DNA of 64,000 nt from assembly GCA_017402995.1 (NCBI GenBank), contig JAFQOV010000022.1, positions 1 to 64,000 on the forward strand, given 5' to 3'. Source of the stretch: Candidatus Gastranaerophilales bacterium. Its GTDB lineage: Bacteria; Cyanobacteriota; Vampirovibrionia; Gastranaerophilales; Gastranaerophilaceae. Shown here piece by piece: positions 48,222 through 49,675 of this stretch (the first letter of the stretch is position 1; the number at the start of each line of letters is the position of its first letter). A program made the position numbers and the translations under genes. The notes beneath the pieces are model-generated. The model worked only from the letters and a program-made list of their open reading frames with translations. It did no database searches and was not told the origin of the DNA.

Positions 48222-48672
48222 CTTCGTTTTTCTTTTCTTTTTTCAATCGCCGATCAAAGAAAAGAAAAACGAAGCAAAAAGAAAAGAAAACACGGCTCGG
48301 TTTCATGTAGGTTTCTAGTAACGCACTAAATTCAACGTCAATGCTTACGGGAACTCGCTAGCGCTCAGACAACCCTCACGCATTGCCGTTTCATTAAGTG
48401 CGGGTGCTTTTCCATAAGCGAGAAACTTAACGACATACAAAATTAAAAACAATATAACCTTTTTTAAATTTAAAATCGCAATCAAGGTGAACGTGAGCGA
48501 TTTTGAGTACGAGCGATAGCGAGAAATGGCTCTCAAAATCGCGAGGTGTGAACAACTTGGAGATTTTAAATTTAAAAAAGAAGAAACTAAGAATTTAGCC
48601 AAGCCGTGTTTTCTCTTTTCGGTTCACTTTTCTCTTTTTCGTCGGCGTTTGAGAAAAAAGAGAAAAGTGAAC
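48222..48672. mobile_element. Nested inverted-repeat element bounded by two inverted hairpins (MITE-like candidate)
   Basis: The left hairpin is a perfect 19-bp stem, CTTCGTTTTTCTTTTCTTT and its complement (48222-48240/48256-48274). The right hairpin is GTTCACTTTTCTCTTTTT(T)C and its complement (48622-48640/48653-48672). Their loops contain CGCCGA and TCGGCG, which are reverse complements. Inside are GAAAACACGGCT/AGCCGTGTTTTC (to 48297 and from 48602), a 23-base imperfect pair around 48322-48401, a perfect 19-bp pair (48459-48477/48562-48580) and an 11-bp pair (48497-48507/48532-48542). It contains no convincing gene. It is a non-autonomous element or a large structured RNA; I cannot tell which. 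Confidence 0.5.
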
Positions 48673-48718
48673 AAAAATGTTTAAATATAAAAAATGACTA
48701 TTTTTTTCAAACTTGCGC

Positions 48719-48746
48719 TTGCAAAAAAAAAAAAAAACGATATAAT
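48719..48746 (+). promoter_or_regulatory. Promoter with poly-A spacer, predicted phase-variable
   Basis: TTGCAA (48719-48724) and TATAAT (48741-48746) are 16 bases apart. The spacer is nearly all one homopolymer: 15 A at 48723-48737. Slipped-strand gain or loss of A would change the -35/-10 spacing. AAAGGA and the ATG of the prepilin-collar gene follow. Confidence 0.6.
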
Positions 48747-48788
48747 CTTTTCGAAACACAAAAAACATTACTAAACACAAAGGATAAT

Positions 48789-49145
48789 ATGAAAAAAATA
48801 GTTTATTTGAGAGCATTCTCATTAGTTGAGATGCTAATTACGCTTGTCGTGGTTTCGGTACTTTTATCTGCTTTTGTACCTGTGATTACAAAGAAAATGA
48901 CCAAAAACATTGAAGTTAAATCTTCTGTTGTTTCTGGTTCAGTTCCTGTTGGCACAGTTGTGATGTGGCTTGAGGATAGCGCACCTGAGGGGTGGTTACT
49001 TTGTAATGGCGCAACAATTCCAAGCGGAAGTCAATATGACGAACTTAGAGCATTTTTAGATGATACTAAGACGCCTGATATGAGAGGACTTATTGTCAAA
49101 GGTGCGACAGCAACAGAAAACACAAACGGAAGGGTTAGGGATTAA
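48789..49145 (+). CDS. Type IV prepilin-like protein fused to phage tail-collar domain
   Basis: This 118-residue protein starts as a class III (type IV pilin) signal: positive MKKIVYLRA, cut before F10, then SLVEML with E14 at the +5 position and a hydrophobic helix to about 35. Residues 50-105 match the phage tail-collar pattern: VPVGTVVMWLEDSAPEGWLLCNG, then TPDMRGLIVKG. It ends soon after, shorter than typical collar domains. It is probably a minor pilin or tip adhesin; no other pilus gene is in the window. AAAGGA precedes ATG 48789; the frame is open upstream but that part is repeat-derived. The following gene lies one base on. Confidence 0.8.
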   Translation: MKKIVYLRAFSLVEMLITLVVVSVLLSAFVPVITKKMTKNIEVKSSVVSGSVPVGTVVMWLEDSAPEGWLLCNGATIPSGSQYDELRAFLDDTKTPDMRGLIVKGATATENTNGRVRD

Positions 49146-49146
49146 G

Positions 49147-49596
49147 ATGAAAAAAATATTAATATTATTTGTGGGGTTAATTTTAGGGTGTAATTTGGCA
49201 AGTGCTAGGAGTGTGAATTGTTGGGAAGAATATACCACTTACAATACAGCACATGATTCATCATTCATGGCAACTGCGCTTGGAAGTGATGTAACGATTG
49301 TTAATACAGGGATTGAATATAACGGAATCGCAGAACTATATGAACGTGTTAGTAGTGATTTTTACGTAGGAGCACTAACAGACTACAGGGTTACTACTCC
49401 ACCATATATAAGGAATGGGAACTATTACTTGGGAGTTCCGTACTCTAGCATAGACAATTACAGTTATACATCTGGTACAACCTTGTATAGTGCCGGTAAA
49501 GTCTACCACTACTGCATAGTTGATGAAGGCTCTTCTGGCGGAGGTGGTGGTGGTGCAACAGGCTCTGTCAATTTCATCATCAAAGCAACATCATAA
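49147..49596 (+). CDS. Secreted partner protein with tail-fibre-like C-terminus
   Basis: This 149-residue protein has a signal peptide (MKKILILFVGLILGCNLASA), a Tyr/Ser/Thr-rich beta-type body with two Cys, a Gly run (SSGGGGGG) and the end SVNFIIKATS. That end resembles the terminal strand of phage tail-collar proteins (family recall: NYIIKA-type ends). One interpretation is that the collar C-terminus moved to a second secreted protein. It is co-transcribed with the prepilin-collar gene (GGGATTAAG site, one-base gap). Confidence 0.7.
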   Translation: MKKILILFVGLILGCNLASARSVNCWEEYTTYNTAHDSSFMATALGSDVTIVNTGIEYNGIAELYERVSSDFYVGALTDYRVTTPPYIRNGNYYLGVPYSSIDNYSYTSGTTLYSAGKVYHYCIVDEGSSGGGGGGATGSVNFIIKATS

Positions 49597-49649: not shown

Positions 49650-49675
49650 GGGGGCATTGCCCCCTTTTCTTTTTA
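49650..49675 (+). terminator. Terminator of the prepilin-collar cassette
   Basis: GGGGGCATTGCCCCC (49650-49664) is followed by TTTTCTTTTT. Confidence 0.9.

Follow-up and report, generated by a model that had tools for sequence, protein, structure and literature searches.

Introduction

Repeat tracts in promoter spacers are known from the hif fimbriae of Haemophilus influenzae, which carry TA repeats, and from Neisseria porA and opc, which carry poly-G/poly-C. The closest described system to the one presented here is found in Mycoplasma hyorhinis, where, as summarized in two articles, every vlp gene has a poly-A tract in its promoter and indels in this tract switch its transcription (PMC10502178, with reference to Citti and Wise 1995; PMC2268961). 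The same articles relate that promoter-spacer indels also switch transcription of the surface-protein genes vmm in Mycoplasma mycoides and maa2 in M. arthritidis (PMC2268961, PMC10502178). For vpma of M. agalactiae, the account in PMC2268961 gives the T-tract at the promoter no role in variation, and this case warns against inferring function from a tract alone. In our literature search, Gastranaerophilales and phase variation were not found together; Melainabacteria and phase variation co-occur in a flagellin survey.

Here we describe a poly-A promoter in a 64-kb stretch of DNA (hereafter, the window) from a Candidatus Gastranaerophilales genome of about 1.7 Mb with a G+C content of 32%. Such a genome size and low G+C, in a very species-rich family of an order that comprises at least seven families, agree with gut Gastranaerophilales; a 16S rRNA gene was not found in the assembly. 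The pattern is real and far beyond chance, and comparison of sequences suggests, with high probability, that this promoter belongs to a ten-locus combinatorial phase-variation family that would act through promoter-spacer slippage. Such a family would be new for the lineage and for these genes; the mechanism is a known one.

Results

A poly-A tract in a promoter spacer

The features of the promoter and of the operon behind it are collected in Table 1. A preliminary description of this DNA had reported a TTGCAA-16-TATAAT promoter at 48719-48746, with a 16-nt spacer of which 13 bases belong to an A15 run that also takes in two bases of the -35 box; when the sequence was re-read, positions and counts proved exact, with CGA as the remaining three bases of the spacer. 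Its statement that A15 is the longest homopolymer in the window also holds, and the run is in fact the sole one of at least 9 of any base in the 64 kb. Among A/T runs, the window contains 274 of length 6, 80 of length 7 and 6 of length 8, none of length 9-14, and then the single run of 15. An order-5 Markov model expects about 0.014 A/T runs of at least 15 per 64 kb, and the real spectrum of run lengths is steeper than that of the model. The TTGCAA/TATAAT hexamer pair by itself is unremarkable, as promoter-like pairs occur in this AT-rich DNA at chance density (4 found in the window versus 3.6 expected). What goes beyond chance is the tract, together with its recurrence in ten homologous promoters.

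Table 1. Positions in the window of the poly-A promoter, its two genes and the terminator
Feature	Position	Strand	Remarks
-35 box TTGCAA	48719..48724	+	overlaps the tract by two bases (AA)
A15 tract, uninterrupted, candidate variable spacer	48723..48737	+	
-10 box TATAAT	48741..48746	+	inside CGATATAATC, which is the same in 10/10 copies
5' leader with AAAGGA Shine-Dalgarno-like site (48779-48784)	48747..48788	+	homologous in 10/10 copies
Gene 1, 118-aa prepilin-like protein with phage tail-collar domain	48789..49145	+	Pfam, PHROGs, TIGR02532
Gene 2, 149-aa secreted protein, Gly-rich C-terminus GGGGGGATGSVNFIIKATS	49147..49596	+	signal-peptide-like start
Intrinsic terminator GGGGGCATTGCCCCC with T-rich tail, operon end	49650..49674	+	

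The same promoter before ten paralogous operons

Genome-wide, in surveys by pattern search and by reading of selected stretches, there are only 11 A/T runs of at least 10, and 10 of them lie in the same core promoter in paralogous copies; the eleventh (C26:17554) has another context. The core promoter is composed of TTGTC or TTGC, the A(n) run and CGATATAATC, in this order. In all ten copies, the TTG of the -35 box is unchanged (TTGCAA in 4, TTGTCA in 6), the -10 region is invariant, and the repeat tract lies between the two boxes, so that indels alter their spacing. A two-gene operon follows each of the ten promoters, and the cassettes are spread over at least nine contigs. By protein search, the genome holds 14 copies of gene 1, and the poly-A promoter precedes 10 of these; no decayed tract was seen among the gene 1 copies. 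Because many cassettes lie near contig ends of this draft assembly, their true number may exceed ten. The preliminary description was exact about the promoter; it missed the ten-copy family, the second, hypervariable gene and the terminator, and the precedents that it named were weaker ones. A tract alone proves nothing, and it is the tenfold recurrence with differing lengths that carries the case. The idea of a chance homopolymer without consequence, for which the AT-rich DNA and the chance density of hexamer pairs might speak, is already refuted by the finding that ten of the eleven long runs sit in homologous promoters, and we give it practically no weight.

Tract length in relation to sequence change

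The tract has 15 A in the window and 10, 14, 18, 15, 13, 14, 13, 17 and 21 in the other nine copies, each of these being a length that a draft assembly may have wrong by at least one base. When paralogs of this one assembly were compared, near-identical promoters were found to differ in tract length. The leaders of L050 and L055 match at 53/53 nt, yet the tracts are A10 and A14; those of L051 and L054 match at 52/52 nt, yet the tracts are A14 and A13; and L052 and L056, with one leader difference, have A18 and A13. On this comparison, tract length appears to move faster than substitutions. Ten uninterrupted tracts, lengths from 10 to 21, and identical leaders with different lengths together support the earlier prediction of a phase-variable spacer.

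The differences in length might be artefacts of sequencing or assembly in a repeat family that is in truth uniform, given the draft state of the assembly and the many copies near contig ends. However, three copies well inside long contigs (one on C21, two on C23) read 15, 18 and 13, respectively, a spread from 10 to 21 goes beyond what miscalls usually produce, and the existence of ten tracts cannot itself be an error; we therefore regard this explanation as highly improbable.

No interruption was found in the 150 tract bases of the ten copies, and 15% of leader sites past the -10 region are off consensus. Under the assumption of substitution rates equal to those of the leader, the absence of interruptions has a P of about 2e-11, a value that is weakened because slippage may itself purge interruptions. 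The count of 0/150 hence tells that the tract is kept pure, and not by which force.

Spacer lengths and tract-free homologues

Between TTGTCA or TTGCAA and TATAAT, the ten copies have spacers of 11, 15, 15, 16, 16, 16, 16, 19, 20 and 22 bp. A yardstick for these values is provided by gene 1 copies that have no tract. In the same genome there are four (C7:199, C8:203, C10:922 and C21:98341), and all have a divergent HTH_3/HTH_19 (Cro/C1-type) regulator upstream. The tract-free promoter on C8 reads TTGACA-18-TATAAT, and those of the sister species G015 read TTGACA-17-TATAAT and TTGACA-17-TATAAG. Weaker matches are TTGACT-17-TAGAAT (C21b) and TTGACA-17-CATGAT (C10); at C7b, no clear promoter was picked. 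The 17-18 bp of the tract-free homologues with clear boxes calibrates the expected optimum. By this yardstick, copies with 15-16 bp should be near the working range, one or two slips off the optimum, and copies with 11, 19, 20 or 22 bp should be weak or silent. The invariant -10 region and TTG, together with these homologues at 17-18 bp, favour the earlier proposal of a spacer-length switch.

In the proposed mechanism, replication slippage would add or remove A's in the tract. The first A's of the tract belong to the -35 box and any A can stand in for another, so that the box would be kept and only its distance from the -10 box would change. A spacing near 17 bp would leave a cassette on and other spacings would silence it, and a population would therefore hold many on/off combinations of surface variants. 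We infer that such slippage takes place in live populations and that transcription depends on tract length. MutS is present in the genome, and slippage thus need not be extreme.

A different account would treat the A-tract as a constitutive promoter feature (bent DNA or an UP-like element) that was carried along when the cassettes were copied and that drifts in length with little change in expression. The cassettes have clearly been copied and recombined, the T-tract of M. agalactiae vpma is inert in the account of PMC2268961, and in another species the promoter of an apparent HU gene has A16 as part of its spacer. On the other hand, spacers of 11-22 bp exceed sigma-70-type tolerance, so that length should matter, and tract-free homologues with clear boxes hold to 17-18 bp. 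Moreover, runs of at least 9 in the window and of at least 10 in the genome are otherwise almost absent, and the retention of ten pure tracts against this background argues for their use. A constitutive role is accordingly unlikely, and slippage in the spacer is the reading that we prefer.

Gene 1, gene 2 and the reading frame

Gene 1 of the window scores 21.3 bits against PF07963 (N-terminal methylation motif; cut-off 21.2), 22.7 against TIGR02532 (cut-off 16.3) and 36.7 bits against PF07484 (Collar; cut-off 24), and it matches PHROG tail collar fibre families. Behind the ten poly-A promoters, gene 1 measures 118-133 aa; 14 paralogs were aligned, and a scan of genome contigs with this alignment yielded a single, distant prepilin. 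The predicted structure of gene 1 is poor (pLDDT 50). The fusion of a tail-collar domain to a prepilin start suggests a little-known form of pilus-linked surface display. Three large proteins of the same genome (552-837-aa frames at C1:125096, C13:11742 and C22:36094) have only the prepilin start in common with gene 1.

The ten copies of gene 2 measure 149-217 aa; CWEE near the N-terminus and the Gly-rich end are common to them, and the middle hardly aligns. No family was found for gene 2 in Pfam, PHROGs or NCBIfam. Its predicted structure is of middling confidence (pLDDT 68), and this model gave no significant match against the PDB. A search for gene 2 across the bacterial family returned matches only in the source genome; the search is insensitive, as it missed both the window copy and a clear homologue in G015 (L134), and it is given no weight as a sign of absence elsewhere. 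In the window, the terminator after gene 2 is strong.

The prepilin start of gene 1, the signal-peptide-like start of gene 2, and a prepilin peptidase encoded in the genome (PF01478 above cut-off at C19:7074) make it likely that the products of the cassettes are displayed on, and thus exposed at, the surface. An adhesive role would be guesswork, prompted by the collar domain and by the variability of the partner protein; an antigenic role is likewise conceivable.

In the window, a frame that starts at GTG 48606 is open through the tract, which might be taken to mean that the poly-A switches translation by frame, with read-through into gene 1. However, gene 1 comes with an ATG and a ribosome site of its own, and because 8 of the 10 copies have an in-frame stop between tract and ATG, translational phase variation was rejected as the general mechanism; we consider it scarcely credible.

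Mosaic structure, origin and distribution

The cassettes are mosaic. Pairs with identical leaders (L050/L055 and L051/L054) are only 65-67% identical in the collar part of gene 1, and the segments upstream pair otherwise (L051/L056, 95%; L050/L057, 92%), which points to recombination among cassettes. In the sister species G015, gene 1 homologues are present, one of them (L134) with a recognisable gene 2; no poly-A promoter was found before these homologues, and their apparent divergent regulator was recognised by visual inspection of the sequence upstream. Since the homologues of G015 appear to be of the regulated type, the regulated operon is probably the older form, and the poly-A promoter would have replaced its promoter later and spread as cassettes were copied, a direction taken from few species.

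It is quite possible, and we propose it tentatively, that a slippery poly-A spacer replaced the operator in ten cassettes, turning deterministic control into random combinatorial switching, with mosaic exchange among the cassettes in addition. One surface-gene family would then be under two modes of control, in Cro/C1-type-regulated operons of the ancestral type and in the ten poly-A cassettes. Regulated and slippery promoters before homologous operons in one cell would offer a natural before/after pair. If this takeover of promoters is true, a vlp-like system has arisen in an uncultured lineage that has no described phase variation.

When the genomes were searched for A9-N(1-5)-TATAAT, the source genome yielded its ten promoters and one unrelated place, and among the 28 members of the genus it alone had more than three places. 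The pattern A10-N(1-5)-TATAAT has a match in 56 of the 383 genomes of the order; among the matches listed, no other genome had more than three distinct places, and by this pattern no other of the 383 genomes showed the cassette family behind a poly-A promoter. Because the pattern is strict (TATAAT only), other -10 variants would be missed. No match to the promoter pattern was found in viral contigs.

Several other repeats were seen. Upstream of the promoter in the window, an interspersed repeat at 48600-48690 contains a 23-nt inverted repeat (48617-48639 / 48655-48677); the same genome has further copies at C4:76174 and C6:81335, and many genomes of the genus have them too, often at contig ends. 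In G017, of the same genus, intergenic tracts of A10-A26 ending in ACGA or ACGG (L141-L147) lie upstream of other genes, two of which are paralogous MKLSPVSFNL-type genes, possibly a second poly-A system. These tracts were rejected as a second case of the TATAAT promoter, as no TATAAT follows the tract and the downstream genes are others. Before the start of an HU-like gene (L182; G341:C61:16508), an apparently single-copy and apparent housekeeping gene, stands a promoter with a poly-A spacer, TTG-A16-TGCTATAAT. Five runs of at least 10 A occur within about 130 bp at G007:C2:367041-367174. In other species of the family (L173, L174, L184 and L185), A10-CATATAAT precedes the same 215-aa frame; with exactly ten A in several species, it forms a conserved-length, non-variable contrast.

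Discussion

The cassettes constitute a candidate system of ten loci, in an uncultured lineage that is distant from the mycoplasmas. Like hif and porA/opc, they carry a repeat in the spacer between -35 and -10 boxes, where a change would alter promoter strength; those systems differ in that each comprises just one or two loci, with a different repeat unit and unrelated genes. The genes vmm and maa2 are single genes, and vmm has a dinucleotide repeat. The vpma genes, which encode surface proteins, resemble the cassettes, whose products are probable surface proteins, in having a homopolymer next to the -10 box; in the account of PMC2268961, the switch there is the Xer1 recombinase and not the tract.

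The likeness to vlp of M. hyorhinis is closer, as both are multicopy families for surface proteins, here probable ones, with poly-A in the promoter spacer of every vlp gene and of each of the ten cassettes and with variable coding regions, and the random combinatorial expression of vlp would be expected here as well. Vlp proteins are lipoproteins encoded at one locus, whereas here a prepilin/collar protein and a secreted partner are encoded in two-gene operons over at least nine contigs. Unlike in vlp, part of the family here adjoins divergent Cro/C1-type regulators, and switching is demonstrated in vlp and predicted here. Judged from domain matches alone, membership of the Vlp family by descent is not indicated, with gene 1 being of prepilin/collar type and gene 2 of no family. 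The best reading of this comparison is that the cassettes would work like vlp and are unrelated to it by descent.
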